Assembly: GCA_031213475.1 (NCBI GenBank)
Contig: JARUPZ010000021.1
Location: 7,385,420-7,449,419, forward strand
DNA from: Nereocystis luetkeana
Taxonomy: Eukaryota > Sar > Phaeophyceae > Laminariales > Laminariaceae
DNA length: 64,000 bases
Direction: 5' to 3'
The position numbers and the translations under genes are program-made. The notes under the pieces were generated by a model. That model was not told where the DNA came from and made no database searches. It worked only from the letters and a program-made list of their open reading frames with translations. Positions 2,318 through 62,227 of this stretch are shown here, piece by piece. The number at the start of each line of letters is the position of its first letter. Within the stretch, counting starts at the first letter, position 1.

Positions 2318-2520
2318 ACCCGGCGACATCATACACAACCAGTGTCGGTGCCGATTCTTTAATTCAAAAGATATACCAGGTACTACAGGTAATGTGGTCA
2401 GAAAACCACGCCAAAGAGATACTCCGTTGCCACGTATGCAGGAAGCAGGAAGCCCAGTGGACTGTGCAATGCTATGGTTATCATATTCGGTACCACGGCC
2501 ACGACATACACATTCTATTG
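2318..2520 (+). repeat. FMR family, arm F with a footprint insertion
   Basis: This is a longer arm F, running from the GACATCATACACAACC word to ACGACATACACATTC. Against sibling copies it carries extra bases at 2374-2385 that contain TACCAGGTA, inserted inside the word GATACAGG. A purine-rich tail follows to about 2600, the complement of the pyrimidine-rich FMR middle. Confidence 0.7.
2374..2382. other. TACCAGGTA footprint-like word
   Basis: Sibling FMR copies read GATACAGG here. This copy has about 12 extra bases between two TA dinucleotides, with TACCAGGTA inside them. The extra bases fit two nested TA insertions. Confidence 0.6.
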
Positions 2521-2529
2521 AATGAAAAC

Positions 2530-5500
2530 ACAAAAGAGAGAACAAGGAAAAAGAAAAAGAAAGACGAAAATTCAAAGTGAAGGAGAACAAGATAACAGAA
2601 AATAGAGGACGAAACAAAATATGAACGGTGTGGAATTGGAACAGACACAAGAAGAGTGAGCTGAAGATCGACGCAGGACGGGTAATAATGCATAAATAAC
2701 GGTTGAACGCGTGAGGAACACGTACGCAGAAGAAGTGTAGAGCAACTGACGCAGTTGCTTTGTTTTCCTATTTTTTGTGGTCTCTGCGGTATATTTTTTT
2801 ACGGGTAACCGACTATCCACATCTATACTGCAGCAGTGCTGCGTAGCAGTGGTATTATTCTTGTTTCCAGTCTCAACTCGCAGGAGCTCTTTTTTCCCTC
2901 AGCGATCTTCTGTGTATGCCGTGGTCACACATGCCGTCCTCAAACGCGGATGGGTGTATGTCGAATTATTGCTCGTTCGGCGTTTCGAAGTCATCATCTA
3001 GACTACCGACAAACGTGCTTGTCCCTGTTATAGCGTTTGTGCTACTACTACTGTAGGCTTGCCAACATCGATTACTTTCATTCGATAACAGGATACAGCT
3101 GACCGCCTTGGCTATGAGGCGACGTTATTTCATCGTAGACTCTCCGAGAGCGCAGCAAGCCTTTTGCACCAAGAGAACAAAACAGAAAGAGATCTATCTG
3201 CTGTAAGTACCTCAAAATGACGAATATGTGCTCCTCGCGATCGACTTCGTATATAGATAGGTCGAATAATATATATGTGCTCCTCGGGATCGACACGCTT
3301 CGTGTGGAGTAGTGAACCTTTGGTTAAGTAGTGTTGCCTAAATTCTCGAGTCAATAATTAGTCGTCTTGTAGAAACTTCAGGGGCACAGGATTTACCATA
3401 CACCCATAATTTATTTGTCAAGCAATAACTACAGATACCTGGTATACGTTATCGAGACTGGATGTGGGCTCCCCTCGCTCGCCCGCTTCAATCTTCATTT
3501 CACCGTCAATTCTTGGAAAAACGCGAGAGATATTGTGGGGACCAAAATTTTGCCACGTTGTCACGTATGAAACACTAATAATACGGGATAAAAAGATTAA
3601 ACAGACAGGGCCGGAAATAGGCAGAAACATGTTGGGCTGGGGCACATACTATAATTATTTGGTGTTCGGGCTCGTCCCTCTTAGGAATGCATTCGTGTGT
3701 AGGACACAGTACCTACACGATAAAAAACGCGTTTGTTTGTCCCCGAACCGTGATTGGAATACTGAACGGATTAGGGCACAACAACAAAGTCGGACCGGGT
3801 CGTGCGACAGCACGCGGTCCTGAAGGACGCCTTTTGTTCGTTTGTTCGTGTCGAACAAAACGTCGAGGTATGTTCGCCGGACGAGAAACATGATAACGCT
3901 GGAACACACCTACAAGAAGAACAAATAAAGCGGGCGTTCCACATTGTGATAATATGGACTCATAGATGCGACAAAACCCAGACACCCGGTCGTGTTTACC
4001 GACTCGAAGAAGCATACTATTAGGCAGGAGACAGGAAAACAATTACTGATAAAACAAACCGAACAACTCGAACCAAAACTTGATCAAACTGAACCAAAAA
4101 TGAAAAACGTGTTCGGCAGCGGCCAGCGTTGTCTCCGCATGCCACACGCGTTGCTCATATATATTCGGTACGGTATTTTTCATTTCCTTACGTCGAAGGA
4201 GAGGAGGTAAAACCGCAAAAGGGCCACAAAATCAATGACGAAAAAGGGCAAGAACACAAAGCGGAAACATCAGTGCCTGCACGTAAGAGGCAAGAGGTGG
4301 GGGGAGAATCCCAGGAAAGTAGACGCAGTAGTATGGGTGAGGAGGTCGGATCTGTCTATAGAGGGAACAAACAGCCCGGCCCCATGTACTACGTCCACAG
4401 CGGTGTGGCAATATCACTTTGGGCTCACACCCCGTAAAGGGTCGGACGGACGACCCCACAACCGCCACCTCGTTGTGTTCATAAACTGTCGGACTCTGCT
4501 TGTCGAGACCTTGTAGTCCGTGATACATTCTTGAGTTTTTGTTCTTGAAAATGTTGGGTATGACGTCAGGCTGTATACTCCTACACTCCGACGCTGCAAC
4601 CGGAGACGACACCGCTGCCGCGTACGTAGTACGCGCGATCTGGAAATCTCACGAAGGTTCCAAGAAGGCCTCGAGGGGAATATTGGGTCTTCCAACTGAA
4701 ACAGTGTAATTCGAATTTGAAGGACGAAAATCTCGGCAGAGCGCCATAATAAGCGACAAACACCACGACCACAAGCTGGCTCGCAATCGAGGCTCCAAAA
4801 TCAAGCAAGCACAGAGTTCTTGGGACACAGAAAAGCGTTTCCAGAGCGATTTTTCTCCTCGCACCGTCGGCACTAGCCACAGCCTGGAGATATTTCAGCC
4901 CCTCACATGGAATACTACAGTAGTACCCTTGAGACAGGGGAAGGTACACACTCATCCAGCTTCTACATCCGCATGGTGATTATTGTACAATTCTACCAGT
5001 CAGTACGATGGGGCGAGCGGGCCAGGACTCCGTCTTCAACTTTTTTTTTGCCTACGGGGCCTGAAGATGCTCTGAAAATACAAAACCGCTGGGATCGAAG
5101 AATTGCTAACTGAGTCCCGGAGACTGGCGCACTGCTGTGTGAAGACAAACCAGGAATCTGATATTTAAGCTGCTCGTACCCTATGGAGTAAATCTAGCAA
5201 CCCGACCGGCACCACTGCTAGTGCCCCGAAGACTGGCACTCGTGCTGTGGCTGGTGCCGACACGGCATTGGTGCATGAATGAATAACAACATGCTTCAAT
5301 AGTTTTTTTACTTTGATTTACTAGTATTATTGTAGGTCTATGGACCACATGAACAACTGATGAATAATTCTCTCATCTCAGCCCTCCTCCCGCCGAGGAT
5401 AGTGAACACACCACCACAATCCTCGCCACTCACAAAGGGTTCGAGATCCAACCTTCTCTGGACCTATTAATGCGCCCTCACCTCTTGGCTGGTTGAGCCT

Positions 5501-5825
5501 TTGTCGATGTGTCTGACCGTGTGCTTCTGTCTCCGTTCGCTTGATACTTCAACGTCGTTAGTACTGTAGTCGTGCCCGTTTCCTTGTGCCTGGAAATGCT
5601 TGAAATACCACACTACTGCTGCTCTGCTGGGCTGCCTTGAAGAGTGTGGGGCTGTGCGTTTTCACTGGTGCCGTGCTCAGTCAACCAAAAACCTAGCACA
5701 CGATGGGCAGAGTCAGAGGTTGAGAAATAAATGCTGCCTGTTCACCTAGAATCCTCGTCGTCAGTCGTCGTCTGTTGACGTCGTTGCTAGTTTTGCACAG
5801 ACTCGTTGTCATCTAACCGAGTACT
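2530..5825. other. No gene recognised; one small tandem duplication
   Basis: I see no family-level similarity in any frame. At about 3224-3300 a roughly 50-base unit containing ATATGTGCTCCTCG and GGATCGAC is duplicated in tandem with divergence. Around 4050-4100 there is an A-rich run of ACCGAA/ACCAAA words. One TACCTGGTA word lies at 3436-3444. Confidence 0.4.
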
Positions 5826-6074
5826 AGGGTCATTCTTATCGGAGAGTTTGTTTTTCCAAATTTTCGACATTTCTTTCGCGCAATCTTTCAATCTTCCATA
5901 TTTCCTCTTTTATGTTCCAAATAAATATTGGAATGTTTACGAACTTGATATTTTTGGTTCTGGAGAATTTCACGAATAATGCAAGAACGGCTCCGTATAT
6001 TGATACATATCTCCGATTATTTCCAAATTATTCGAGAAATTATGGAAAAAACGCTCTCCGTTAAGAATTACCCC
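5826..6074. mobile_element. MITE-B copy 1 (249 bp, TIR about 21 bp)
   Basis: The left end reads AGGGTCATTCTTATCGGAGA and the right end CTCTCCGTTAAGAATTACCC, which are inverted repeats of each other. The interior is AT-rich and itself partly self-complementary around ATTTCCAAAT. Copies with the same ends and interior lie at 37219-37484 and 42570-42831. No coding capacity is seen, so this is a non-autonomous DNA element. The target duplication is not clear. Confidence 0.75.
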
Positions 6075-6232
6075 GGGCATGATTAAAAATATGCCGCTGT
6101 TTGCGGGATACACCAAACTGCTTTTTCTCGACAAACAACTATTTTTGAAGGTACTCGTAGTCAACACCAAATGAGTTATCAGTTTTCGTCCAACGAAATT
6201 TCGTGTGAGGGGGGGGCAAGGCTCCAACGCTT

Positions 6233-6325
6233 GTGTGTTCTTCACATTAAACCGTCCTTTCTACCCGTCGACATCCAGCACAACCGGTGCCCGTGCCGAT
6301 TCTTCAACCCTGGAAGAGATACTTG
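6233..6325 (+). repeat. FMR family, arm F (short copy)
   Basis: The copy starts at GTGTGTTCTTCACATTAA and ends near GAAGAGATAC. It has no middle segment after it. It shows that arm F can stand alone, about 160 bases downstream of MITE-B. Confidence 0.7.
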
Positions 6326-6680
6326 ACGGTATCCATGATACTCGAAGTATTAGCAGAGCACTGCTGTCGCGATCGACTGTCGGGGGGAGCGTTTTTACCT
6401 AGCGAGGAACGTGCAACGCTTCGCAAGTAATGTATCAATTATTATAGTTTAATGTTTAGTCCTTATATTAATAGTACAGACGCCAAGACTGCAACAACTT
6501 GTGGCGGCTGTTACCGGAGACGGAAAGAGTGCGTAGATTCTGCCTGTACCTTCTCCTTGAACAACTGAAAACTTTGATTAATGAATGAATTTCATCACCC
6601 ACACAAGAATACACTAAATTGACTTTGTTGCTGCCTCATCGTTTCAAAAATAATTTGTACAAAATATCCCAATCACACGA

Positions 6681-6804
6681 TTACGGGGGGCCATAGTAAA
6701 TAGAACCTGTACTTCGTACGTACGTACGGCACACACAAAAAACTACATGTTCACCTTTTTTGAAAAAAACTATATTTGATCCTATTTTCTATGGTCCCCC
6801 GGAA
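6681..6804. mobile_element. MITE-A copy 1 (124 bp)
   Basis: Inverted ends read TTACGGGGGGCCATAG on the left and CTATGGTCCCCCGGAA on the right. Two siblings lie at 31419-31526 and 32612-32753. The interior has little in common among the three apart from AATAG/CCTATT words next to the ends. TA is a plausible target duplication, but the tips differ slightly between copies. Confidence 0.75.
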
Positions 6805-6917
6805 TAAATCAATCGTTTCGCTGCAAACTGTTGTTGTTATCGAAGACCGATGTTGTGTGCACTTGTTTTGTACTTTCAAGTATTTCGGGGGGTAATCTTG
6901 CCTGATATCACCAGTCA

Positions 6918-7250
6918 GGGTTGTTTACATTAACCCTTCTTTTCTACCAACATCGAGCACAACTCGTGTCCGTGCTGGTACTTACTTGCATCCTCGAGGG
7001 CCTCAAGCTCTGTGGTCACAAAAAATGGGGCAGGGAGATAGTACAGTGCTGTTATGGAGTGAGCAGAGCAGACATTGCAATGCCACGAAACACATTTCAT
7101 TTCACGAACGTAGGACGGCGACGCAGACAAGTTCGCAAGGTACCATACTGACAACAGTTAACACAGTGCGCATAACCTGGCTATGGTATTCGTACCGCAA
7201 ACTGCTGCGGCTGTCTGGAGAGCGTCTTGCTTATTTATTTGTTAATATGC
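6918..7250 (+). repeat. FMR family, arm F plus middle M
   Basis: Arm F runs into M, recognised by the words GACGGCGACGCAGACAAGTT, CGCAAGGTACCA, and ACCGCAAACTGCTGCGGCT. At about 7179 the copy reads CTGGC-TA-TGG-TA-TTCG, where siblings have a single TA or other TA-flanked fillers. Confidence 0.75.
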
Positions 7251-7362
7251 GTCGCTCTGTCTAATATTTCCTTTCGATCTCAGTCTTCCTTTGTATATAT
7301 TATATACTCGAAGTATATTTGTACCAGCGTTTAATTGTTTAGCTCGTTCTTTTGAACTGAAC

Positions 7363-7751: not shown

Positions 7752-7865
7752 ACTGTCTGCCAGGGGGGCACGCCAGTTTTCCTTATCCTATTCCCTCTTT
7801 GGTTTATATCTTAGAGATATTCTTTTTTTAGGATACTTTTGCAGTCCTTGTTCCATAGAATATGT

Positions 7866-9287: not shown

Positions 9288-9395
9288 TCTGTCTATCTAT
9301 CTGTCTGTCTGTCTGTCAGTCTGTCCGCATGGCATATATTTTCGAACATTTTTAAATGGTCGACATATATATATATACATATATATATATAATGT
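9288..9395. repeat. Microsatellites (TCTG/TCTA)n and (AT)n
   Basis: A tetranucleotide run of TCTG and TCTA units spans about 9288-9326. It is followed at 9365-9393 by an AT-rich dinucleotide run. Confidence 0.85.
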
Positions 9396-9699
9396 TGTTA
9401 CATACGATATTTGTACGACGTATTCGACCCTTCCTTACCGACCTTACATACTGAAGCATTCCATGCCACCGGGAAAATTTAACCATATACCAGGAATATA
9501 CTAGTAATACATCCGCGACACCATACCACCCAAAAAACATCCCCCATCCCCCATGTTTTCCCCTTATTTATACCATAACAACAATGTTTTACCAAACCAC
9601 CAACAACACACCATATCACATCCCGTGCCCCACATCACATCTATCTCGTGTTTTTTCCATATCTTCCCATATATCACATACATGCCGTATATCATACCG

Positions 9700-10290: not shown

Positions 10291-10299
10291 CCCGCTATA

Positions 10300-10720
10300 A
10301 TATCCCATTTATTTTGACCTGTACGTACCGACTGTTTAATGGGAAGAACACACTCACCAGCGTACCAGGTATCGCATAATATTTTTGTATAATAGTAAGT
10401 TGTTTTTCGTAGTATACAATAATACTCGTAGTGCGGGAATAGAAGGGTAGCAAGTTGGTTGGTTGAGCAGATACGTACGGAGGTACACTGTTTGTGTTGG
10501 ATGTCGACATGTCGACGTCTGCGTTTGTATCCCATGCATCTCTCTTCACGCGAATAAAGTACAGGAAGCAGGATGGTTCACAAGATAGATATGGAAGGAG
10601 TTGCCGGGTAGAAAGAACAAACAAGCAAAGTGAGGCCCGCTGTATCCCATCTTAACCTGTACGTCCGGACGGTTTAATGTGAAGAACACGCTCACCAGGG
10701 TACCATACCCCACGTGCAAC
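10300..10720 (-). repeat. Degenerate FMR arm R copies in tandem
   Basis: Two stretches, 10300-10390 and 10645-10715, share TATCCCAT, CTGTACGT, and GTTTAATG-GAAGAACAC with CACTCACCAG. These are the arm R end (GTTTAATGTGAAGAACACAC). A third worn fragment with GTGTTGGATGTCGAC lies at 10495-10515. Confidence 0.55.
10363..10371. other. TACCAGGTA footprint-like word; sibling has TACCATA
   Basis: The sequence is CACCAGCG-TACCAGGTA-TCG. The sibling at about 10695-10705 is CACCAGGG-TACCATA-CCC. The same site therefore carries a five-base filler between TAs in one copy and a three-base filler in the other. Confidence 0.6.
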
Positions 10721-14170: not shown

Positions 14171-14198
14171 TACGAGTTATTATGTGATTGCAAAACTG

Positions 14199-16589: not shown

Positions 16590-17290
16590 AAGGAGCCGTG
16601 TGGCGTGGTTGGATGACGAACCTGCTCTGCTCGTTTCATATTGTCTGACGCCAAGGGGCTGGGTATAGTTGACGAACGCAGGGCGGAGACGGCAGTCTGG
16701 GTAGCAAGGTACCAGGCGGATTAGCAGGGGGAACCTGGCTATACTACTCGCACCACAAACTGCTCCCGCCACCTGGAAGGTGCTTTGGGCTATGGTCTGC
16801 CTATTATTTCCTCTTCGTTATTTTCCCTTCTTAGTTATTTGTTTTTTTTCCTTGGTTCTTTGTCTTACTCCGTTTACAAGCAATGGCAGTTTCGTTCATT
16901 TTTTTTTTCCAGCTTGTTCTTTTTCAAGTGTTGGCCACCTCGCCTGCGGGGGGGAGGCACGACAGATTGTTTCGCTTAGATTTTGCTTTCATTTTTTTCT
17001 TTTTCTCTTTCGATTTGTCTACTTTGTTTTTGTTTTCTCTTTGATAGTTTTTTTTCGTTTCTCTATTTCATAGATTGTGTATGTCGTGCCTGTCGTATCT
17101 AGTATGATGACATGGCTTTGCATTGTCCACTGCAGTGCTTACTGCACACGTGGCAACGTAGTATCTCTGTGGCATACCTTTGTGACCACAGAACCTGTAT
17201 CTCTTCTAGGATTGGAGAATCGGCACAGACACTGGTTGTGCTGGATGTCGACGGGTAGAAAGAACGGTTCAATGTGAAGAACACACACAC
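16590..17290 (+). repeat. FMR family, M plus arm R (best complete copy)
   Basis: The left flank is GTGGTTGGATGACGAACCTG. M contains CAAGGTACCAGGCGGATTAG and CCACAAACTGCTCCCGCCAC. After the pyrimidine-rich stretch, arm R runs from TGTATGTCGTGCCTGTCGTA through GGCAACGTAGTATCTCTGTG and CACTGGTTGTGCTGGATGTC to GTGAAGAACACACAC. It serves as the reference for the insertions at 17454 and 38985. Confidence 0.8.
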
Positions 17291-17780
17291 AATTCAATGC
17301 AGTCTGTGGTCGCAGGACAGTCTCTCCAATAACTCTGGAGTGGAAGAAATACCTCGGTAGTAAAACAGAGGCAAAAATGATGACATGGCATTTCATTGTC
17401 CACTGTATTCACTGTACAGTGGGCTGCAGATGTTACAACCTACTTATTAATAGTACCAGGTATCTCTGTGGGGTAATTTGGGGACCACATGACTTGTGTC
17501 TCTCTAGGATTGAGGAATCGGCACGACCACCGTGCTTACTGCATACGTTGGAACGTAGTCCAACTGTACCTCCGTGGCGTAGCTTCGTGACCACATAACC
17601 TGTATATTTTCTAGGATTGAAGAATCGGCACGGACACTGGTTGGGTTGGATGTCGACGGGTAGAAATAACGGCTCATTGTGAAGAACACACACGGATACA
17701 TGGACACACGGACACACGGACACAGGTTGTGCTGGATGTCGACGGGGGGAAATAACGGTTTAAAATGAAAACACACACAC
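17291..17780 (-). repeat. F-prime end and extra arm R copies
   Basis: The first 80 bases (AATGCAGTCTGTGGTCGCAG, CCAATAACTCTGGAGTGGAA) are the reverse complement of the F-prime repeat at 20.2 and 30.4 kb. One nearly full arm R (17377-17690) and one stub (17700-17780, with GTTGTGCTGGATGTCGAC) follow. A GGACACAC microsatellite separates them. Confidence 0.7.
17454..17462. other. TACCAGGTA: exact 7-bp insertion at a TA
   Basis: The reference arm at about 17158-17168 reads AACGTAG-TA-TCTCTGTGG. This copy reads AG-TACCAGGTA-TCTCTGTGG, which is the same sequence plus CCAGGTA. A second TA-flanked filler (CTTATTAA between TAs) sits just before it. Confidence 0.7.
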
Positions 17781-18170
17781 ATATTTTGCTTACAGCAAAG
17801 TCGTTTTGTGGTCCAGTCGTCAGCGAACGGCCCACTTTCTATGCATAACCGTTTTTTTCCGCTGTTGTTAATACCACCGTACTTGATATGATGAGCCAAA
17901 TTCCGACCGAGGGTATTCCACAAACATAAACCAATCTAGATTCTCGGCAAGGTACTGCATCACGCAACCATTTGTTTTGGCGATCGAAAAATGGCGGTGG
18001 GGGCCAACAAAATAAAATATGACTTCGAGGTATTTGGTTTTCCGGCTCTCCGGCCGACAGAAAAATGAGGTCAGGTACTATTAATAGTTATTTTTGTAGC
18101 ACTACTTGCGATATGATATAAATATAGTGTCGGGCTATATAAGTACTCAATATCATGTTTTAATAAAAGC

Positions 18171-21644: not shown

Positions 21645-22040
21645 TATTCCCCTTTTTCGCTACATACCGTGTCATGCCGTGGCTCACCCGCGGCCAAACC
21701 TTCCACGGCATCTCCCACGGCATACCACGGAACCTTCCACGCCATACCATGGACCGCTAACACTAACGCTGACCCTAACATAGGTAACCCTAACCTATTA
21801 ATAGGTGCCGTGGGCATTGGGGTGCCTTGGGGGTTGCCATGGCATGCCGTTGGATCGCCATGGAGTGCCGTGGCAGTTGCCAGGGGGGTTGCCATGGTAC
21901 TACCTGTGGCATGCGGGCAACACCCCACGGCGTGCCGTGAAATTCAATGCGACGCCATGGGATGCCGTGGGGATGCCATGGTATACCAAGGGTATACCAT
22001 GGCACTGCCACGGCAAACGTCAGGTAGTGTGGAACCCTGG
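21645..22040. repeat. GCCGTGG-rich element 2, telomere-like core with a TTAA insertion
   Basis: The layout is the same as in element 1. The core at about 21757-21795 reads CTAACACTAACGCTGACCCTAACATA and more CCCTAA. Right after it comes AACC-TA-TTAA-TA-GGTGCC, where the siblings have AACC-TA-GATGCC (19.66 kb) and AACC-TA-GGTGGC (47.92 kb). Six bases have therefore been added exactly at a TA. Confidence 0.75.
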
Positions 22041-28536: not shown

Positions 28537-28880
28537 ATTTCGAAGAAGGCTCGACAAGCCAAACGTAGGCCTCACGGGGCACAGGTTGGCCGTCAATCAA
28601 CCTCTTTCGCCACGGGACAGTGATTAGTCAAGTATGACCCACACAACTATTAATAGTAGTCCAACTCACAGCTGGCCCTAAACGTTTCTGTAAGGAACGA
28701 ACACATCACAGCCGGATCCCAATGGTGAGAACTATCTTATTTGAGAAGAGATTTTGAAGGGCCAACCGTAGGCCTGACGGGGCAAAGGTAGGCCGTACAC
28801 CAATAATTGCTTCGGCCACGAGAAACTCACAAGTCAAGTATCGACCAATTATCTGGTTCAAATCACAGCTGACGCACTCA
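28537..28880. repeat. Diverged tandem duplication (about 200-bp period)
   Basis: The first unit has CCAAACGTAGGCCTCACGGG, GGCCGTCAATC, GTCAAGTAT and CTCACAGCTG. The second (from 28737) has CCAACCGTAGGCCTGACGGG, GGCCGTACACC, GTCAAGTAT and ATCACAGCTG. The first unit carries AAC-TA-TTAA-TA-G-TA-GTCC where the second has AAT-TA-TCTGG, another TA-flanked insertion. Confidence 0.65.
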
Positions 28881-29169: not shown

Positions 29170-29430
29170 TACAATTGATTCAAGACGCAGTGTGTTCATG
29201 AAATTTGTCTTGACAATTGGTTTAGGCGACTGTAAATTTTTTCGAATTGTCCACACAATCGATTTCGGCGATGGATTGCCGACCAATGGTAATTGTTCAG
29301 ACAATAATTGATGTCGGCGTTCGCCCACTAATTGAACGTGGCTACAAAATGATTTTCAACGATTGATTGTGAATTAATTGCCTAGTACCTGGTATGATTT
29401 TTCCTGAATTGGAATTGTCCAAAAAATATA
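29170..29430. repeat. Worn AATTGATT-type repeat
   Basis: Variants of CAATTGATTTNGGCGA recur at 29175, 29215, 29255, 29300 and 29370. TACCTGGTA sits inside it at 29386-29394. Confidence 0.45.
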
Positions 29431-29784: not shown

Positions 29785-31035
29785 GTATGTATACCTGGCC
29801 ACTTTTAGGCTAATAATATCAGTTAGTTAACTCTGAAATCAAATACAAAACACACCCCAGGAGTCCTGCTATTGTTCAGGCTGACCTAGTAATTGATTTT
29901 AGCTCGAAAAGGCCAAGGTATATCTGTTCTTTTCTATCCTGTCTAGCTTTCAACTGATTTAGGCCAACTTTGAACCAATCAGAGAGGCCAAACGTACATT
30001 GTTTTTTCTCTCCGTATGCGCCTGCCCTCTCTCCGTTGACATTCTTCTGTGCTAGCGTTTAAACCCTGTACTCGTATATATATACGTCGTACACAAAATT
30101 GCGTCTCTGTACATGCATGCATACATATATATTTCATTTTTCTTTCATCATTCCCGTTTGTACATCTTTGTGTCTTTGTTAGTATGGTCCGTTTTGCCTT
30201 TTTCTTTCCTTTTTTTTGCGTTTTGCTATCTGCGTCTGTTTCTGTTTTGTTTTGTGTTTTTTGCTTAGCTTCATCTTCTTTTTTAGGTTTTTATCTGCTA
30301 TTAATAGTCTCCTTTTTGCTTCCCTGGTGTCCGCGGTGGTGGAGTGCGTATGCTTGTTTTTTGTTTTTGCCTCTCAGAGTCTGTATTTGCTTCAGGTATT
30401 TCTTCCACTCCAGAGTTATTGGAGCCTGTCCTGCGACCACGGACTGCATTGAATTGTGAATTAATGTGAGAACAACAAAAACAACAACAACATACATGCG
30501 TACGTGGGTTTCACTTTTTCGTTTTGGGGGTGATCGACCTGCTTCATCAGTTCGTAGTTATGTCATCGTAATTGTTGCGATTTGTGATATGTACTCTGCT
30601 GTTGTTTCCTATGGTCACAGCAGCAGTCGATACAGCACCATGGTATTTGTCTGCCCCACCTTGCATCGAGGTAGGTGTGGTCTCAAGTTTGGTACGGCAA
30701 GATAGTTTCGTGCCGATCAGGCGGTTCCGGGAGGACGGTTTATTAAAACGATTTAAAGTTGTCAGGGGGGGGGGGGCGCCAGAGAAAAAATCAATAAAGC
30801 CTACTATAATAATAGTGACAATCTGCAGGTCTTAGTGGAGCCCGTGGTATCTACACCCTCAAGAAAACCAAACAATTAAGATTTTGGAGGCCATGTGGCT
30901 TTGGGCGCATTCTTGTTGACCGGACTTTCATGGACTCGTGGCGCGCGTTTTTTACTTGGTTTTAGTATGTTCTTGATTTTAGCTCTCAAAACGGATCAGG
31001 TATAATACCTAATTTTGGCATGTATGTGCCCTATC
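29785..31035. repeat. Left arm of a large inverted duplication
   Basis: Two parts match downstream DNA in reverse. 29785-30130 matches 34740-35465 (the latter split by a SINE). 30185-31035 matches 32940-33660. Landmarks are GGCCACTTTTAG, CAATCAGAGAGGCC, TGTACTCGTATATATATACG, the F-prime repeat, CACAGCAGCAGT, a run of 12 G at 30767, and TACTTGGTT to TTGGCATGTAT at the inner end. Where the right arm has TGTACTCG-TA-CGTCG, this arm has a TATATATATA expansion. Confidence 0.75.
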
Positions 31036-31418: not shown

Positions 31419-31526
31419 TTACGGGGGACCATAGTTAATAGGACCTATGGTATTATACATAAAAACCTATATATTTGACCATTTTTATCAACAATATTTG
31501 GTCCTATTAAGTATGGTCCCCCGTAA
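31419..31526. mobile_element. MITE-A copy 2 (108 bp)
   Basis: TTACGGGGGACCATAGTTAA faces TTAAGTATGGTCCCCCGTAA, an inverted end of about 27 bases that includes AATAGGACC/GGTCCTATT. It lies between the arms of the inverted duplication. Confidence 0.8.
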
Positions 31527-32753: not shown

Positions 32754-32939
32754 ACCTATACTCGTAACGTACAACCGTTTCGGCATTGTACTACCTTGAA
32801 AACACAATCAGGCTATTAGTTCATACCAGATATATATGTTCTTTTGGGGGGGGGTCCTGCGACACACATGCCTGCCGCTATACCAGGTAGACGCGAATTA
32901 TTATCAAGCCGTTTGGACTCTACTAAGTACTAATATTAT

Positions 32940-38450: not shown

Positions 38451-38740
38451 TCGTTCTTTTTTTTAGGTGTCTGCCACGTTCACTGCTGGGAGGTCACGCC
38501 AGCAGTTTTGTAGTTGTTGTTGTTGTTGCTGTTTTGTCTTCCGATTTGTTTTCTATAGCTTCTTGTTTTTCTTTTGTGTTAAACTTCGTTTCTCTCTTCA
38601 TAAAATGTGTATGCCGTGATTGTTGTATTTAATAGGGTGACAAGGTATCGCATTGTCTACTGCTCATCCGCTGCTTTGCTTACTGCATACATACCAGGTA
38701 TACATACCATGGACCATAATAAGTATGACGTGGCAACGTA

Positions 38741-40109: not shown

Positions 40110-41906
40110 ACACACAATGAACTCATCCATACTACTACCATGGCATGTGTACACCCGAAAACACAAAATATAGCGCGACTATGAATAAGAAGAAATAATC
40201 ACTGTTTTATATTAATAATACATAGTATATACCTGGTACTATAAATACGCGTATTGTCCAGCAGTTGATTGTGTGAACATGTAATCTTGAATTGCTTCAT
40301 CGCATATTGCGTATAGGTCAACTTATTTTGACGCTGCTTCAGTTTTCCACGCGGTTCCCAATGGCGACTGGACATCGATACGGAGCCAAACGTACCATGG
40401 ACGCCCCAACCAGAGGTTCTTCGAACTGCAAAAACAAAGCGCTCTGTTATTAACAGTGCTGCCTGCCTTTATTTGCGAACACGCGCGTAGGTGTTATTAT
40501 AAGTAGTACTAAGTGTCACACGCATCCTTTCTGTTTCTGTAGTGACTCCTGGGGATCGGTCAGGTGAGATCTACCTGGTCCGAGAGGAATGCTTGTAGAG
40601 ACACTAGAAACATGATATTCGTGGAACGAAGAATTAACTCGCCCTTCGTAGATGAATACGAGTAAGGCAATACGATACTCGCGATTTTGGAGTAAATTAT
40701 CGGCAATTCAAATGTTACATTGCAGTAGTAGTCCTACTTGATCGACGTCGGCGCGTGGGATCATCACGAACCTTTTTGTTTCAACTTTGGATTGTGTGAA
40801 CTAAAAAGTTGATAAAAAAAGGATTTTCGGGCATTCTCATGTTTGTCGGCGCCCACAATTTAGACACTCAACGCGTTGTCTCCCCGAATACTCACCCAAC
40901 AAATATACGATCGCATACCTGATATATATATTATATGAGGACTGCACGCCGACCGTGATCACTCGCGATCGGGCAGAAAACCTCTGAAATTATTTTTTTC
41001 GCCCCAAAGCCCATATAGCTTCACAAACATCGGCGTATTCTTCCTGAAACGTGTAATTCTTGGTTCCACGAGTATTATGTTCAAGTGTATGTGGCTATAA
41101 CTTTGATCGCAACAATATGACACAAAAAAAGCGACAGCCTATAAGGAAAAGCAAGTCGACACAGGACCTCGGCTACGAAAAGGGTATAACACGATACGGG
41201 CGAACACATGTGATGAATGACCAGGCTCCTTAACTCGATATCGGTGGGATGCCCTTTGTATAATAATTGGCAATATGTTATGCTGATATATACCTAGGCT
41301 TTGAGAGATTGTTCACACAGACTCGGTTAACATACATAGCAGATACTTGGCGTCAAGCGCACACGAGAGGTACATACACGAGGCAACAGGTGACTGACGT
41401 GTAACTACCCAGCTGTACGAAGAAACGAGTGTATGTGCAGGTAGCCACACCACGTACGTACGGGTAGACATTTGTGAAACCCGAGATCGAGATGGAACGA
41501 GACGAGCTTTAGTCTGTGATCTACCCCGCGTACGCGACACCTTTTTTGTCCCATCAAGTGTATGTAGTGGCCGACGGTTCAAATGTCAAATCGAGAGGTA
41601 GGTGAGATCGGAATACGGTGGAGAGTGTCCGTGCTGACGGAGTATTCGCCACCACCTTTCAACTACTACTTCCACCTGACTAAACCGGCGTGTCAGGAGT
41701 ATGACTCGAAAGAGGTTGTTGGCAAACGCCGTTTGAGGACTCAATAATTGGTTTCAGCACGAACGAATAGGACTAGTAGTAGCGGACAGCATGCTGGGAG
41801 GGCGGCGTGGACGCGACGTATTGGAATCCTGCAAACGGCTCACTCACTAGGAATCAGATATTAACACTTAGTAGTACCAGTAAGATAAAATACATGAAGC
41901 ACGGGA
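40110..41906. other. No gene or repeat recognised
   Basis: A TACCTGGTA word lies at 40230-40238. All frames are under 95 codons and none resembles a family. Confidence 0.35.
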
Positions 41907-51200: not shown

Positions 51201-54200
51201 AACATCTACACATCAATACGAGGACTTCGATAAACGTAAGAGTTCGTCAGATCTGTTCCCGAAAAGCGCAACATCGTTCGTGTTTTTGCCGTACTTACCG
51301 GCAGCAGCAGTTATCCTCAGCACGATTTCGCATGCGCATGATACACGTGATGAGAAACGTTACTCGGTGTATCATTAGGTGCGAGGGCGAAGAGCACTCC
51401 CAATGGTCTAGTGCAGTGCACACCCCACCGTGAGACGCACAGGAATCCACCCCCAATGGCGGCGCTGTGGTTATTTTGACCCGGGGAGCTTGGTGTTGTT
51501 TTCACTAACTGATGTGTTTGCAGTCATCTAAATTGGCTCTCGCACGCATGCAAACAGTGTAGAGGGACTGACAGGATGCACGTTAACACGACCACACACA
51601 ACAAAATACAGGCGGCAGCGTGTACCCCGTGTACCGAAGGGTAAGAAGCAAGCTGTTTTCGAGGGGCTCCTGGGTCATCACCGAGGGCAGCACGACAACG
51701 ATACAGTACAACCTGCGTTCACAGCCCAGGCGGGTACTTGTATACCTTGGTGGAGGCACTGGTGGTGTACTGAATTCGTGAGTATTCACACCCCTTGCTG
51801 TAGTATATGTGTGTCGCCACATCAAGAAGATAAATCATCCATTGCTGTAGTGACGCATCATTTCCGGGAAAGTGCGTGACATGCTCCCTCGTCGTGAAGA
51901 GAGAAGTGGTTCGAGCAGAAGTATTCAGTCGTTGATTCAAGAATACTCCAAGAACAAAGTCACGAGCAAAATATTTTAGTTCCCGACATACGAAGATAGA
52001 TGAGGAATATCTGTATTCATTCCAGGCCACATATACATCGGGCCCTAGTGTTGGAACCCACAAGACACAACAGTGGTACACACGAGTCCCGAATCATTGT
52101 ATCCCACCCCGTGGAAGTGCAACCCAGTCGATGCGGCTTCGCTTGGAAATACCTCCGCCACCGATATTTTTTTCGCTACTCAATACCTGGTATAAAAGAA
52201 CAGATAGCCCTCGACAAGCATCAACGACGGCGGTGCACCAACAGCCTGACTATTCGGTGCGAGATGCGACAGAGGTCTCAGACTGCGTAGAATAAAGTGG
52301 TGGGTAAAATTACATCCTAACCTACACCATCAACGTTTGTTCTCTGGTTGAACGATATGCTCGATGCGATATCGATTATATCGATTATACCGATTCCAAC
52401 AGAATCCTCCATAACCAGTGATAGAACGTACACCTGCGAAGGAAAAAGGTCGAAAAACCTGGGGACGGACGCTGGTAAAATCATCAAACAAACTCCATAG
52501 CGCCACTGTCACACATGAAACATCGTGCTGCCCCCAAACAGTATGAACTTCTCCTTTCTACTCGATATAGTAGAGAAGAACATAACTATGTAACAGTAAC
52601 ATAACAGTACACCTCCAAAAGGAAATAATTCGAATGTATGGAAGAAGGTTCAACTGGAAGCAGCTTACCAGCAGAATAGTCCCCACGGGAGTGTGGAACA
52701 GCCATCATGGGTTTGGCGTTTGAATATACAGATTATAAGGAAATTTGGCAGTACCAGGTAGTGATTGCTTCTTTCGTAGGTTGTGCGTACTTGACCGAAA
52801 CCCAACATGTACCACACGATTCATGAAGCCCATTGACATACCTTGTTGGCTTGCTCAGACCATGTTTATTTCCCTACGCTCTTCAGTCCAGGAAAGTCAC
52901 TGATCCTAAAACTCTCAAGGAAAACATGAATCGAACGAAATGGGCAACGGTCTGATAAAATAATCAGCATCTCCTCTGCCGACTGTACGTGCATAATCTG
53001 AACCCCCCCGTAAACAGCAACACTCCGAAGGCCGTGATGACTGACATCAATGTGTTCACTGCTGTGAGGAGTCGTCGAAAACATATAATATACAATTGCC
53101 CCAACTTACAGCGTTCAACCTCCTCCAGTCTTAAAGCAGGCAAGCATCATCAGATCGTTAATGTCAAACGCAACGAGAGATTCCGCGCCCCCCTATACGG
53201 CGGAAAGGTGTTGGAGGACGGCTGTTCGTAGGAGGTGCTACCACTCCCCCCAGGGATTGCCCTGCGAGTGTCGACACCACAGCTCATGAAACAATAGGGT
53301 ACTGGCGGCCAGTCAGATATCGTCTCTCCTACTTCTGCCAAGGTGTGTTGCGACAACAATATTGAAGTCGCCCCCCTCCCTCGACGACTCGTTTCCTCTA
53401 AGGTGCCTGGGTGCCTGTGTTTGTCGGCACGCCAGTCACCTACAGGATTTGATATCGCGACACACACAATCCCCCGCTTGCTATACATACATGTACATAC
53501 ATACATATACATACGTAAATGTTGATATATCGCATATAGGTTGCCGCCCGCTGCCAATGACGCTATGAGCCCCGACAAGCACTGTGTGGGCCAGACAACC
53601 AGCGTGCAGTGCTTTGTTTGTTGTATCGGTCGTCACGGCCGGCATTCGAGTCAAGTAGACCATTGGTGCAGGGTGAATATTCTTAGTCCTGCCCAAAGTG
53701 GATGGTCGTGCACATTTAGCAGCGTACACCATGTATATTTCACGGCACCCACGAGGCAGCGTGGCCTCGTTGATGGAAGCAGCCACACCAAAAAAATGCT
53801 CTTTTAATTGTACAGTTTCCTCCGTTGTTCCAAGACCATCCGCCCCACAGGCGCTTCCTGCTGTGGGAGGATGCAGCTCATCCGTAACAACTCCCGATGG
53901 TGTCATGGATCAACAACGTACACACAATTACACCCCCCTGCGAACTGTTTGTCGGTGGTATTCCGGGGGTTGGCATTCAGCGTCACATATGGGTACTGAC
54001 AACCGCCAATGGCATCAGTCCCCAGCGTCGGAGTCGAAGACCCCGGCATGAAGGGAACGGGAGTCTGTGGGGTCTCAAGTTGATCCTGGCGAATGTTAAA
54101 GAGGGTAAAAGAACACGGCGGTAGCGTAAGGGGTCAGAACATGCAAAATTCACACAGGAGCACCGTCAACAGTATTCGACTCAATCGTTTGGACTAGTGA

Positions 54201-55522: not shown

Positions 55523-58500
55523 CTAGACTGGGCCTTCCGAGGTTGGGCCCCCTGAGATGATGCATGGCGACATCGACGTGGTGCTGCAGAAAATGCCACT
55601 GTCTTCGATTACACTGGTGCAGCAGGCATTCTACGATATGGGGGAGGGGCGAGGAATGAAAATTCCATCAGACGTGACAATATCGGGGGTCGGGCAGTAC
55701 AACATTGCGGGCACTTAAATCACGCGTACTATGGTGGAGGGATAACACCTGAATTTGCTGAAGATGTCCTCGCTTGGGTGAGTTTGAAACCTCCCTCAAT
55801 GGTCAGGAAACAAACGAAAGCAAAGCAAGTTGCACAGTCCCGTTGAATAGTATTCATGAAAAGACATGGTCAAGTACAGATCGGATGAAGATATTGTGGG
55901 TAGCTCCTCGGATGAGGAGCCCCATCAGTATTCATTTATGTCGGCTTTACATATCTCCGAAGTAGCCTTTTTTCGTGTAAATTTTGTGGTGCACGTGAGG
56001 TTTGACCTGTGTTCGATGTGGAGGAACTCCAACGACATGCTTGGCCAAAAGAACCCACGCTGCAGCACGGTAGAGGTGGACCAATCGTCTCTGAGGTTCG
56101 CTTCTTGACCTTTCCTCACCCAAAGCCTCATCACCGCAAAAAGCCAAAGTACTACACGGTGAAGAACCCCTACGACAAACACCATGGGCTCTTGCGCGGT
56201 GGTACTTCCCGCTTTTTTTACCGGGGAAGGCCCATAGGCCAAAAACACAACGAACGAATTAGACTCGTTGTACCGCAGAGATTCTCAATATTTTTGGCGG
56301 GGAGGCAATTTTATTTAAAAAAGCCCGGATGAGGCCTCAAAAAGTAATGCCATGATACGAGAAGGCTCCAGCGACAGAAAGTAAATTTCGTCTTCGAAAC
56401 TCAGCGTCATGGTTTGTGAGAGTTCATACACAACTACTTGTGGTTGTGTATCATAGTAGGGTGAAAAAAGTATGCATGTTCTTATTATTATTATACTATG
56501 TAGGCGCGAGTTCACGAGTTAGTTGTCGATACTTTTGGTCATTTTGATCTTAAATTGACGGGACAGATAAAAATTCGAGCCGTTTGCGTATCGACTGATT
56601 TATGGTCTAATTACAAGCATATTCAAATACGTGTATGCATGTATGTACATAACCCATTATGAATTGGGCCTTCCGCCATGAATACAAACAACGTCCTTCT
56701 GTTGCAAACTCTAACTCACGCGACAGAATCCTCTTAGGTGAGGCGTTTCCCTTGTTCCATGCGGGCGTGCGGATATGTTTGGGTTGAAATTTTAATAGAC
56801 TCTTGAGGGTTTCACCCCACGGTGGAACTGAACGCCTTTGCCTCGAACCAGTTCGTAGTAGTAGTAATATATTAGATTATTTGTCAAAGAAATATTGGAT
56901 ATAAATTTCACGAGTAAAGTGTTCGACTTTGAACGAGTTGAACGGCTCTCTAGAGGATATTGTCACAATCTCAAATAAGCGCTAACGGGGGGAAGCTGCT
57001 CTATTACTCTAGAGCTCCAATTGTGCGAACTTCCACAGGTTGAGGTGAGTGTGGGATGGGGATCACAAAGCAGTCATCGATTTCGAACTCGCTTATGCGA
57101 CTGAGTTCCAGCTACCCGAAATCACGATAATGGCCTCGGATGGCCGTGAAACCCCTGTTGTTCCTAAACTATTCATGATTTTCGGCAATGAGGGCAATTT
57201 TGAAACGCATGGAAAATTGCTTGTGTGGGATCACGCAAACGGCAAGTACGCTTCTCTATATTATTCGGAACTCCCGTTCGTTGAAGTACCTTTCCGGCCA
57301 TGAAAACATGGTTTTCGGTCTGGATTTGGAAACATTGAAAAATGTCAACACTTTGTCTCACCCACGTGATTGATAGCTCTTACGCACTGCCAATCGACCA
57401 GGCATAGTCGATTGGCGAGGAAGGCTATTAATAATTATTTAACGTTAAGGATTGTAGGCAAAAGAAAGTGCCACGGCAATCAAACCCCTTTTTGATTTGA
57501 GTACCTTTTGAATCGACGGATTAGGGGTCGGCAGGAAGGAAAAAACCTTTCGCCTCTCGTATGGTTTAGGTATCTCCGACCCTGGACGCACCACCGCGGA
57601 TGTGGCTTCAACCGGAACCTCAAAAAATGCTTGCACAATATTAGGCAGGTTTCTGGTCGAGAGGCCGCGTTCAATCAGAAATAGTTTGAATAAGAAAGGA
57701 GCTAGTTTCATCGTAACCACCGCTTACAGCAAGTGCCGGCAATTTATATCAACGAACCTGGCCGCCGGGCTGGGTGCGGCAACCAAATCCTCCACATGTC
57801 CCGCACTGAGACTCGCAGCAGAAGCCGTCTCTTTCCACGCCGTTCACACCGTTGCTGCAAAACACTTCGAGAGGTTCCGTTGGTTTGGCGAGGGTTCAAG
57901 GATTTCGCGAGTTAGCAATTGTCAGGACAAAAATGGCATGAAATGCGTGTGCAACAAGAACCAGACGTCTTGGACAGAGTCGTGTCTGACCTAGCAACGG
58001 GACAGGCAGCGAAACCCTCATGATTGGCCGAAAAAAACGTCTAGACTTCCTGCTGAGGTTTCTTGAATGTGCATGTTTAAACGATAATCAACAATCCATA
58101 TTTTCGCAGTTGTCCATTTAAGCTAGCATTGCAACCATTGCCCTCAATACTCACACGCTGCGTTGCCTGACGATACAAATAAATGCGAATGATAGCCATT
58201 GTTTACGTAGGGTGTGAACTATTCCGCCAATATATCTCTTGCCGGTGCCGGTTTAACCCCGATCACCGCCGCCCAGCACTTCACCATGGGAAGCGCAAAT
58301 ACGAGAGTCAAAAACCGTTAAACTCAACCAACATGCCGCCTCTACAGTAGTATTGCCTGGACGTATGAGATACTGAGGTGCGCTGTCGCGTACAACGGAG
58401 AAATGTGAACACCACTGAATCAAACCAGCTCACATAAGTTAACAGACATGCAGATCAGAGACGAACCGAAAAGACGGGAAGCGCTGGTCACGCCGGAGCT

Positions 58501-60405
58501 CAGCAGGACGCGCGACAGGCACACGTATTAAAACCGACGTACGTGCGTCCGTTTGGCGTACACTTGCTACGAGAAGGCTCATCAAGTATGAAGGTACGCT
58601 ATCCCATACAGCAGAGAGTGGTGAATAAGAAATGGCCGAATCATTCAACACGAGCATCTGGCGTGACGATCGGAGACAAAGCAATGTGAAAGGAAGCGCT
58701 GGAAAATCCGGAGCTCAGGCGGACGCACCGTCGTCGTCAACTATGCACGGCGCGGCCATTGTGGCGCTGCACAGCACTCCACTGTCACGGATTCGGCTCG
58801 TACAGCATGCATCCTGTCAACATAAGAAGGGGGCGAAGCATGGCTTGGTCAGTCTGACCGATATTTATTGGTGGCTGAACAACACAACTCTGCATGCCAT
58901 GCATTCGTACTCGTAGGTTTAACGGTGCCGCCGATTTCCTGCTCGAACCCGTGGTACCGGTAGGGTGTGCAACGTTAAGCTCCTGGTTCCTCGACGAAAG
59001 AGAGCAGACGAGAATACTTATATTCATGTTTCTATGTATGACAACAGTATTCGTCACCGGCACATACCTACTGCAGCTGAGGATATTGATTTTCGGGTTT
59101 TGCATACAACACTTGCTTATTGCTTCGTACGGGCTCAGGTCTTTACCAATTTCGATCAAGGACGCCACTATACTTCGGACTGTGTCCCTGCAATGGCACA
59201 CTTCGACAACAGACACCAACTGACCGCTCCGCCGACTTGGCCGCCACAACCGCTTCCTCCGCATGTCACGCAGTCGGCACCGCAGCAGATGTCGCCATTT
59301 TGGGTCCCCAGGATGCCGTTGCTGCACATGCCTTCAATGCAAAAGGGGGTTCATTGAGATCGAGCATGATTTCGTCAAACTGCACATCATGTTTGAAGTG
59401 GAGGCCCTCTACGATAGAGGTAACACAATTGTGAGCAAACTGTTCGAGCTTCGACGGCGTCAATATCGGGTCCCTCATCGTTCAGACCCCGACGTACACG
59501 TATGAGATGCATGTGGCATCAGCCGGAATCATAGGGTTTGTCTTCGTTGAGTTCCGAATCGTACTTTGGGGGGATATAGAACATCTAGATTATATTAGTG
59601 TAGAACGCCTGCATACGGATTGTTAGCGCTTTCGGAGGGTTCAGGCTCGTCGCTACAAATCGCGGAGAGGGCTGCCTGCGAGAATAAGCAGCCGACGAAA
59701 CATACGCAATGCTCATAAATGCTGCATTCCCAACTATGAGGGTATTCAATGGTCGAACCAAAGCTCAACAAGACGCACTGTCGTTGTCGATGATGCACGG
59801 CGCAGCCTGGGTGTCGCTGCACGGCAGGCCACTCTCCCACACTCCGCTCGTGCAGCAGGCATCCTGTCGTCAGCAGAAGGGCAAAGGCATGGCTTGGTCA
59901 GACTCACCGACCGATGTTGGAAGGCTGAACAGTGGCCCTTGTCCCTACCCTATGTTCGTTGATGTACTGATGAATGTGACCTCCCACCGAGCCGTGGTAA
60001 AGGGAGGTTGGGCGTTAAGAGACAAAAACAAATGAGGTGATGGGGTTCCTCAACGGACGGCAGGCGATTCTTCTCAGAGTCGAGTATTGGGTGAGGCACA
60101 GATCGTTCAGAGATGCACAACTGTTACGCTTTACCCCTACAGTTGGCACGCGTCGATAGCTAACACCAACTAACCGGTCCGCCGGTTCGCGAGGCGCAAC
60201 CGCGTCCTCCGCACGTCCCGCAGGAAGCAGCGCAGCAGATATCGTCGTTCTGGACTCCTATAAAGCCGTTAGAGCATTCCGGTACCAGTTCTTGGCCTTC
60301 TAAACAATAGGAAAAATCATTGCAGCGAACATGGGTACAGCCGACAGTAATAGGGTTGACACGAGGGCGCTTGAAACTACGCCAAAGCTCACTCGTAGTG
60401 CTCAT
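55523..60405 (-). CDS. Six-exon gene: three-module Cys-rich protein, 240 residues
   Basis: Exons on the minus strand are 60405-60175, 59863-59779, 59331-59225, 58813-58729, 57864-57758 and 55630-55523. Introns of 311, 447, 411, 864 and 2127 bases all run GT to AG (donors GTTAGT, GTGCGT, GTCAGT, GTGCGT, GTTCGT; acceptors ACAG, GAAG, ACAG, GAAG, GTAG). The joined frame is 723 bases with one terminal TAG. After a 43-residue start there are three modules of about 64 residues, each with ten Cys in the order CSNG, CC, C, TCGG-GC, CC, CS, PCI. Disulfide-rich modules like this occur in predicted secreted proteins of brown algae and other stramenopiles, as far as I recall. I see no signal peptide at the chosen ATG, which follows an in-frame TAG nine bases upstream, so a further 5-prime exon is possible. 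The function is unknown, and an extracellular role is an inference. Confidence 0.6.
56945..57015. repeat. CTCTAGAG fragment inside intron 5
   Basis: CTCTCTAGAGGATATTGTCA and TTACTCTAGAGCTCC share the octamer and the following GATAT with the satellite at 11.7-12.7 kb. Confidence 0.5.
57049..57303 (+). CDS. Exon-like frame on the opposite strand of intron 5, unknown
   Basis: The 84-codon frame reads smoothly (AVIDFELAYATEFQLPEITI, IFGNEGNFETHGKLLVWDHA, YSELPFVEVPF). Its residue mix is like that of an ordinary globular protein. It follows AGGTTGAGGTGAGT, which could hold a splice site. No family was recognised. It could be an exon of a plus-strand gene or a captured fragment. Confidence 0.3.
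   Translation: MWDGDHKAVIDFELAYATEFQLPEITIMASDGRETPVVPKLFMIFGNEGNFETHGKLLVWDHANGKYASLYYSELPFVEVPFRP
58729..59331 (-). other. Cys-rich module 2 (exons 3 and 4)
   Basis: Exon 3 (107 nt) reads MCSNGILGTQNGDICC, then CVTCGGSGCGGQVGGA. Exon 4 (85 nt) reads DACCTSRIRDSG, then CSATMAAPCIVDDD. The branch-like CTGAC and TTGACAG acceptor before exon 4 resemble those before exon 2, and intron positions are the same as in module 1. Confidence 0.6.
59779..60299 (-). other. Cys-rich module 1 (exons 1 and 2)
   Basis: The module half in exon 1 reads ECSNGFIGVQNDDICC, then CGTCGGRGC and TGG, up to a GTTAGT donor. Exon 2 (85 nt) reads DACCTSGVWESG, then CSDTQAAPCIIDND, and ends in phase 1. Before the module come VGCTHVRCNDFSYCLEGQEL, adding three more Cys. 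A TTGTTTAG acceptor at 60300 offers an alternative start for exon 1 at 60299, which would also keep the frame. Confidence 0.6.
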
Positions 60406-60409
60406 CGTA

Positions 60410-62227
60410 GACTACTTACTACGATCGAAAAATATTGAGATAAGTGTTCGACGCATTTCATTTTTTCGAAGACGCTCCTCTTTTAAGGAGCTTTATACCT
60501 ATCCAAAACCGTGCCTTGAAGTAAAAGCTGAAATCCTGTGAGCTTTAACGGTGTACATCGAATAGCATTGTAACCAGCAAAGAGTCTTCAATTGATATTA
60601 AGCAAATTTCCCCAGATGAGAAGCCCTGCCAGTCAAAATCTTTCCTGAGGGCCAAAACGTGTTGCCTCGCGTAACCAACCCGTGGGTTGCTTGTTGTGTA
60701 AATGGAAGTTGTTGCAATCCCGCTATCCTTCAAGACCAAAACATGTTTTCAAATGTTTTTGGTGATGCCACTATATATATGCGAGAGACGGTAAAGACAT
60801 ATTTCAGCAAGACTCTTCCAGGTATAAAAAATGTATTCACAACCGAACCATAGACCAACCGTTCTCACACCAGTTACCACCTGCTTGCTGTATTATAGTG
60901 TGATCGAATATAGGGCATCAACGACAAGAATAATATGGGTAACCTCTCCACGACTCGAGGCCTGTTTATCGACACGAGATTGACTTTTTGATTGTCTCTT
61001 CTGCTTCCGGATTCTCCTCCCTCCATCGCACACGGGAAGGATATGCCTGCCGGTTTGCGTTCGGGGTCGTGCGGCCTGTGTGGACATGGCAGTATATCCA
61101 ACGAACAAACAAACGGACTGCATATATATCCTGTTGCTGTCGTTCGAGAATACGAACATAATCCAATTTGTTTCCAAGAGACGAATGGCGAGACGGATTC
61201 CGGTTATCTCGCTTCTAAAACGCGGGCAGGCGAGACGGATTCTGGTTATCTCGCCTCTGAAACGCGGGCAACGCGAAGAGTCAGCGGGAGCCAGCGATAA
61301 AAGGGGTTTTCATATCGATCAAATGGTATCCGTGTCGAAGGATATGACGGACGACTCCACCGCCGGACTGCTTGTTGTCACCCAGAATGCCGCCGTAAGC
61401 ACTGGAAGTCATACAGATTCGGCTTTCTGGTCGTTCGCAATCTCTCCGCCGTCAACCATCAGCGCAACGCCACCAGCCTTTCCAATCCTAGTGTCTTCTC
61501 GGACCCGCCATCTCGTCGCCGCTGCCGCTAAAACCCCTTCATCAGCGATTTGTGTATTAAGGAATACTTAAGAGGAGCGTCATTAAACATATTCTAGACG
61601 TATCACCGTCACTGGGACCTGACTTGTCATATATAAGGCGTACATGTAACGGTCATGCTATTTGTATTTTTTTCGCGTATACCTGTGGCAGCGACTAACC
61701 AGGAACTCCTGCCACTGCTTACCGTAAGTACCCTGTGTAGTAGTAATAGTAGGTGGTAATCTTTGACGCACTACAGTCGGAGTTGCGCACCATTTGACTC
61801 GTTCTGCAGTCTATATAGCACTGTTACTCCGAATCTCCTTGTCTAGATGCGGGAGTATAGAACAGCTAACTCTGCTCTCTTACTTGGAACACAAACACTA
61901 CATAGCATTTTCAAAGGCAGTGGTAATGTAGGCCTACTGTGTTGCCGTCTCAATACCTGGTACGTGTTACGTCAGTCACCGCAGAGATCTCTGCCGTCAG
62001 ATCATTGGCGTGTCCAACAGCACATAGCATTAGCAAATGGCACGTTCAGTTGGTGATTGGATTGAAACTGTGAAACAAATACCTCTTCAGCTGTGAGTTC
62101 AGTATGTGTCGTCTCGCGTCCTGTGGTAAACGGGCGGCCAAAACGTATCGTACACGTAATCAGTTACAAGTTTCAAGTGTACACCCCTTGGCAGCAGTAT
62201 CGCTTTTGTGAAGATAGTTAGCTGTTG
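60410..62227. other. No gene model; one in-frame tandem repeat
   Basis: A plus-strand frame at 61080-61571 (163 codons) contains the 42-bp tandem repeat described next. The minus strand of 61400-61560 reads GGVALMVDGGEIANDQKAES, then a possible GTATGA donor, so either strand could hold an exon. TACCTGGTA lies at 61954-61962. Confidence 0.3.
61187..61270 (+). repeat. 42-bp tandem repeat, two units
   Basis: GGCGAGACGGATTCCGGTTA is repeated 42 bases later as GGCGAGACGGATTCTGGTTA, followed by TCTCGC and AACGCGGGCA. The period is 14 codons. Two plus-strand frames stay open through it, giving RRIPVISLLKRGQ-type and GETDSGYLASKTRA-type repeats. Confidence 0.8.

Follow-up and report, generated by a model that had tools for sequence, protein, structure and literature searches.

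The 64,000-base stretch analyzed here (the window; contig C21, JARUPZ010000021.1, positions 7,385,420 to 7,449,419 of assembly GCA_031213475.1) comes from the brown alga Nereocystis luetkeana and carries 12 exact copies of the word TACCWGGTA, where W stands for A or T (Table 1). Protein relatives agree with a brown algal host: for a fragment of an acylaminoacyl-peptidase gene on contig C2, the top full-length named relatives among the best 120 of 653 hits belong to the brown algae Scytosiphon promiscuus (74%) and Ectocarpus siliculosus (72%). Ten long open reading frames of the window gave no Pfam match above cut-off. A preliminary description of the window had listed these copies, all of which lie where it placed them, and had read them as footprints of a Tc1/mariner element with CCAGG tips. 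We propose that TACCWGGTA probably marks sites from which a TA-targeting cut-and-paste transposon has been excised; the element would most likely belong to the Tc1/mariner-pogo superfamily.

The over-representation first noticed in the window is borne out genome-wide. Whereas 100 dinucleotide-preserving shuffles of the window contained the word 0.35 times on average and at most twice, the genome assembly (465,085,209 bases in 1,987 contigs) contains it 182,395 times per strand, against 1,744 occurrences of the reversed word (~105-fold). This corresponds to one copy per 2.5 kb (~25 per 64 kb), and the window, with one per 5.3 kb, is poorer than the genome mean. We tabulated TA-N5-TA words in a sample of 324,000 bases, made up of the window and 26 further stretches of 10 kb each. 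CCAGG/CCTGG stands at the top: an order-2 model predicts 3.0 sites and 115 are present, and none of the remaining words listed exceeds 16. The scars are spread along the sampled contig (75 in 20 stretches, 0 to 8 per 10 kb). In a sample of 342,054 bases, whose counts are slightly inflated because it includes six 3-kb loci chosen for holding the scar, 126 sites have A or T as the central base and five have C or G. Five of the 126 scars fall in long open reading frames against 6.4 expected from the share of TAs, a comparison uninformative about any relation to genes. Genome-wide, TACCSGGTA (S being C or G) occurs 10,882 times against 1,899 for its control, so that W centers are ~17-fold commoner; the excess amounts to ~5% of the TACCWGGTA count, and mutation of old scars could supply it. 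The near equality of A and T (97 and 106 plus-strand centers among 203 scars) weighs little by itself, because the scars cannot be oriented, whereas the strong exclusion of C and G centers is the useful evidence. We saw no regional strand bias of the central base, adjacent non-tandem scars agreeing in 83 cases and differing in 80. One-mismatch neighbors of the word are numerous in the larger sample (272 strand counts against 252 perfect ones, with no chance level computed) and show strong transitions at the flanking TAs, the forms TACCWGGCA and TACCWGGTG being consistent with transition decay of TA. For this reason, as far as so crude a dating goes, the scars appear to differ in age and not to stem from a single recent burst.

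Comparison of repeat copies shows that the word arises when seven bases, CCWGGTA, are added at a single TA, leaving the scar between duplicated TAs. For each site we removed seven bases, joined the flanks and sought paralogues in which the TA is retained and the alignment runs through the junction ungapped. Such an exact empty sibling exists for 11 of 124 TACCWGGTA sites, a filled sibling for six, and one site has both; control TA-N5-TA sites gave 8 empty and 170 filled among 1,193, two having both (Fisher's exact test: empty versus filled, P = 2.5e-9; empty versus all, P = 1.3e-7). Five empty sites are clear (L021:7935, L029:5518, L029:9454, L033:6993 and L034:656; L-numbers denote fetched genome stretches, with positions counted within each), and the first of them has 14 empty siblings. 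The stretch L029 also holds, at ~3567-5109, a large palindrome whose inverted arms match over ~1.5 kb. Because both arms carry the same scar, that scar is either older than the duplication or was copied with it. Siblings lacking the word had been described for the window copies at 17454 and 38985; they do appear in gapped alignments, but neither site is among the 11 strict cases. Two further comparisons did not hold: the alignment between 10363 and a presumed shared site near 10700 stops inside TACCA (10367/10705), short of demonstrating that site, and the TATGGTA noted at 7179 (7182-7188), taken for an insertion, differs by substitutions from siblings such as TATGCTA (L032) and TATACTA (window 16669-16777). 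The three-base CCA/TGG scars proposed together with the five-base ones are likewise not supported, since TACCATA occurs 41,549 + 41,250 times against 42,422 + 42,290 for the control and none of 58 sites has an empty sibling. What stands of the earlier proposal is thus the five-base scar between TAs, which fits the insertion tests; its three-base part is rejected, and no CCWGG-tipped element was found in the stretches described below.

Insertion favors TAs that have a second TA seven bases away. Of 248 flanks, 33.1% have a TA at this distance from the TA of the scar, compared with 7.3% around any TA, and the preference persists (57 of 212 flanks, 27%) after dropping flanks within one mismatch of the scar; next to the scar's TA, about three quarters of flanks have a purine. 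Because the scars carry a TA at distance seven, they match the preferred target themselves. Tandem scars sharing a TA are found genome-wide in all four arrangements of the central base (A-A 4,800, T-T 4,739, A-T 4,522 and T-A 1,856; controls 0 or 1), and these 15,917 adjacent pairs compare with ~1,300 that chance overlap would give (estimated from the 18,880 TAs of the 342,054-base sample).

We picture the origin of the scar as follows. The tips of the putative source element would read CCAGG or CCTGG, and its transposase would nick the non-transferred strand five bases inside the element, leaving the donor site with two identical 3' overhangs, 5'-CCAGG-3'. These could pair CC with GG around a single A:A mismatch, and end joining followed by mismatch repair would then yield either CCAGG or CCTGG, with a minor class of joins that lost the mismatched base giving CCGG. 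Each jump would leave one scar, in most places too small for selection to notice, so that scars would accumulate, and the TAs of a scar, being good targets, would allow further insertions to stack in tandem. A three-base stagger would predict TACCATA scars, and these are not in excess. The genome does contain a DDE/D transposase of the Tc1/mariner-pogo superfamily, the pogo-type DDE_1 domain (PF03184) matching 28 of 48 scored candidates with a best E of 3.4e-28.

Several observations weigh against this explanation. A scar of five bases in 182,395 copies lies outside the 2-4 bp footprint range given for Tc1/mariner in the passages cited (PMC7913693), and the 0-4 bp range given for the pogo element Passer also falls short of it (PMC9976928, in part). 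In Sleeping Beauty and mariner, according to the portion cited, the first nick falls three nucleotides inside the element and the resulting 3-base 3' overhangs are end-joined into the footprint (PMC7827188); a five-base stagger exceeds this. Of the empty sites, four (L012:6074, L023:8194, L023:8260 and L034:4779) sit in local or AT-rich repeats, L003:1501 aligns with several mismatches, and at L029:8965 two scars lie side by side, of which the sibling carries one. The T-A tandem class (TACCTGGTACCAGGTA) falls short of each other arrangement by a factor of ~2.5; random repair predicts neither this shortage nor the same-center surplus that it makes, and some copying may have contributed. The search for the source was also negative in several respects. 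No CCWGG-tipped element was found in 360,872 fetched bases (some overlapping; <0.1% of the genome), the 125 half sites listed reveal no recurrent element end, and the three of 28 DDE_1 loci that we examined (4.5, 4.3 and 4.0 kb) show no CCWGG tips around the domain, although the ends may lie outside; these loci hold one (L035), four (L036) and no (L037) complete scars. A profile search for PF13358 gave no match among 30 scored candidates while its control was positive in 3 of 14 genomes, and one for PF01359 gave none either, which is uninformative as no control matched. In Ectocarpus, transposase genes of DNA transposons are often intron-bearing and poorly conserved, as the cited part of that study reports (PMC12477816), and exon-by-exon searches therefore miss some transposases. 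Since a family of several thousand intact copies should have appeared in the sample, scars probably far outnumber intact elements, as judged from <0.1% of the genome.

Candidate elements that did surface were set aside. Across the 360,872 fetched bases, a scan for matching ends starting CCNGG returned two pairs, neither of them convincing: one is a CCCGGGTA repeat in L014, the other lies inside the large palindrome of L029. At L035, a 10-base inverted pair (TACAGTGGGG at 367 and CCCCACTGTA at 2381-2390) cannot mark the ends of an intact element, as the transposase frame (1830-2885) runs through the second. Most of the recurrent half sites are not ends either, because they share their upstream flank too. 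Pairs of CCWGG at 20-99 bases number 24 against ~8.6 expected by chance (from 192 left half sites); they have no common interior, several of them are tandem clusters, and the scars as such are clumped. A scan of the sample for terminal inverted repeats at TA (requiring an exact 6-base tip and 18 matches in 24) found large palindromes and a TTACGGGGGACCATAG... family, and no CCAGG family. We also observed a palindromic family of ~105 bp, TTACGGGGGACCATAGTTAATAGGACC..., with many copies (L018:414-518, L022:6031-6135, window 31419-31526 and others), which is probably a miniature inverted-repeat transposable element.

Alternatively, the same chemistry might be the work of an enzyme outside Tc1/mariner/pogo, either encoded by an unrecognized TA-specific mobile element or domesticated for the programmed removal of elements. 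The size of the scar beyond the published Tc1/mariner range (PMC7913693, in part) speaks for it, as does the fact that 182,395 scars are accompanied by no CCWGG-tipped element common enough to appear in 361 kb. The same genome, however, has pogo-type transposase domains and an excess of a Sleeping Beauty type word (below), so no new enzyme class is needed, and we consider this explanation unlikely. A different cut in the same event has also to be weighed. Tc1 is credited with a 2-base stagger, and if the tips ended in CC and were cut in this way, joining could place a single untemplated base, A or T, between CC and GG. The plain join, TACCGGTA, is itself enriched (25,126 against 9,325 for its control) and has the same target preference, with a TA at seven bases in 14 of 48 flanks (for TACCSGGTA, 0 of 10 in a small sample); among 24 CCGG sites, an empty sibling exists for one and a filled sibling for five. 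Untemplated addition, however, predicts more CCGG than is seen, the one-base form being several times commoner, and other added bases, whereas C and G centers are ~17-fold rarer, a level explicable by mutation of W. Two-base additions of A/T are unremarkable (CCTAGG and CCATGG, one site each), while CCCGGG and CCAGGG do stand out. We regard a 2-base stagger as quite unlikely. CCGG is in our reading a minor outcome of joining within the process that makes CCWGG.

The tandem pairs raise the question of whether the seven-base unit multiplies by itself, as a microsatellite does, through replication slippage or gene conversion; a small replicating unit had been named as an alternative in the preliminary description. 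The 15,917 pairs at seven bases, with same-center pairs (9,539) exceeding mixed ones (6,378), would suit it. Copying alone, however, cannot yield A-T pairs at nearly the frequency of A-A and T-T. Most scars in the sample stand alone (spacings of seven number 10 among 126 scars), and changes from TA to scar occur at isolated TAs. Because of the A-T pairs, copying of the unit is excluded as the main source of tandem scars, with reinsertion into existing scars fitting instead, and self-multiplication as the origin of the word is very improbable. It is equally improbable that the word is a binding site, another selected motif or an assembly artefact: CCWGG is the bacterial Dcm/EcoRII site, but the word originates by insertion of seven bases at TA and is scattered over the sampled contig, and one would not expect errors at CCWGG to create insertions flanked by TA.

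If the TACCWGGTA scar records excision of one TA-inserting transposon, other words may record others. Background rates in the empty-site test were 41 empty and 198 filled of 1,712 for any TA-N4-TA, and 5 empty and 152 filled of 1,305 for any TA-N3-TA. TACAGTA/TACTGTA, a scar class of Sleeping Beauty type, is in excess on both strands (162,074 against 54,742 for the control, ~3-fold; 13 sites in the window) and favors CTAG targets, with C before TA in 48% of sampled flanks; the evidence for its insertion is thin, with 3 of 110 sites having empty siblings, all three at CTAG, and nine having filled ones. The word CTATTAATAG, with TTAA between TAs, looks like a further class (22,282 against 267 for the reversed control, ~83-fold), and among 72 TATTAATA sites five have an empty sibling, three of these being CTAG, and four a filled one. 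Weaker candidates are TA-CGAG-TA (TACGAGTA/TACTCGTA), with 69 sites against 10.1 expected in 324,000 bases (~7-fold), 15 of them in the window between 696 and 58908, and 2 empty and 11 filled of 70 sites in the test, and TA-CCCGGG-TA, with 12 sites, none empty and three filled. Among all candidate classes, only CCWGG is well supported as an insertion. The set fits several TA-targeting element families, each with its own scar.

Table 1. Scars and proposed scar words located in the window (numbered from its first base)
Feature	Positions	Strand	Basis
TACCAGGTA scar	2374..2382	+	exact word
TACCTGGTA scar	3436..3444	+	exact word
TACCAGGTA scar; homology with copy at 10627-10705 ends inside scar	10363..10371	+	exact word, alignment
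TACCAGGTA scar adjoining TATTAATA word at 17445; siblings without scar in loose alignments	17454..17462	+	exact word, alignment
CTATTAATAG, proposed TTAA scar class word	18078..18087		word match
CTATTAATAG, proposed TTAA scar class word	21795..21804		word match
CTATTAATAG, proposed TTAA scar class word	28647..28656		word match
TACCTGGTA scar	29386..29394	+	exact word
CTATTAATAG, proposed TTAA scar class word	30298..30307		word match
TACCAGGTA scar	32881..32889	+	exact word
TACCAGGTA scar	38692..38700	+	exact word
TACCAGGTA scar; single TA in siblings at 17164-17261, L034, L019	38985..38993	+	exact word, alignment
TACCTGGTA scar	40230..40238	+	exact word
TACCTGGTA scar	52184..52192	+	exact word
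TACCAGGTA scar	52752..52760	+	exact word
TACCTGGTA scar	61954..61962	+	exact word

Taken to its full extent, our proposal is that a TA-targeting lineage with an unprecedented five-base self-complementary stagger jumped ~180,000 times in the germline. Every jump would have left the same scar, few intact copies would remain, and other elements would have produced at least two more scar classes, CWG and TTAA; to this whole account we give about even credence. Footprints of excision are a familiar phenomenon, and the cited part of one study describes insertion next to an earlier one (PMC1925063). Among the literature matches listed, as seen in titles and the starts of abstracts, none reports one uniform scar at such number in any genome, and among those listed for the exact word TACCAGGTA no title concerns transposon scars. 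The five-base scar exceeds the reported size ranges, its novelty being pending on the element itself. Cut-and-paste transposons are usually tallied by their surviving copies, because the scars of their departure are short and varied. The scar described here is long and uniform enough for genome-wide counting and rough dating, which would allow measurement of jumps per surviving copy, of landing preference and of how the host mends the break (A versus T centers, CCGG losses). A true five-base stagger would extend the known cutting geometry of the superfamily, and the genome would then be a datable ledger of cut-and-paste transposition in which the target preference of the transposase is recorded in scars.

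Several known systems resemble this one in part. Mos1/mariner, whose tips begin CCAGG and whose footprints are TACCATA and TATGGTA, shares with the proposed element the TA target and the start of the tips; unlike in Mos1, the stagger here would be five rather than three bases, and CCA scars are at control level (82,799 against 84,712 on both strands). The Stowaway footprints of Triticeae, a class of miniature elements, are likewise short tip remnants between TAs, but those described in the cited passages are heterogeneous (2-4 + 1-2 bp) and come from one intron, whereas the scar here is nearly uniform genome-wide (PMC1925063). Ectocarpus, also a brown alga, has 17 Mariner-Tc1 families and resembles this case in its host, the TA-targeting superfamily and many non-autonomous copies, although the main text of that study contains no word that starts with 'excision' or 'footprint' and its passages cited here name no CCWGG tip (PMC12477816). 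Sleeping Beauty, whose footprint is CAG according to the part cited (PMC8151067), leaves three bases where the ~10^5 scars of this assembled genome, left by a putative element, have five; in both systems, TA is the target and is duplicated, and the scar here, like CAG, would be a tip overhang that is self-complementary except at its center.

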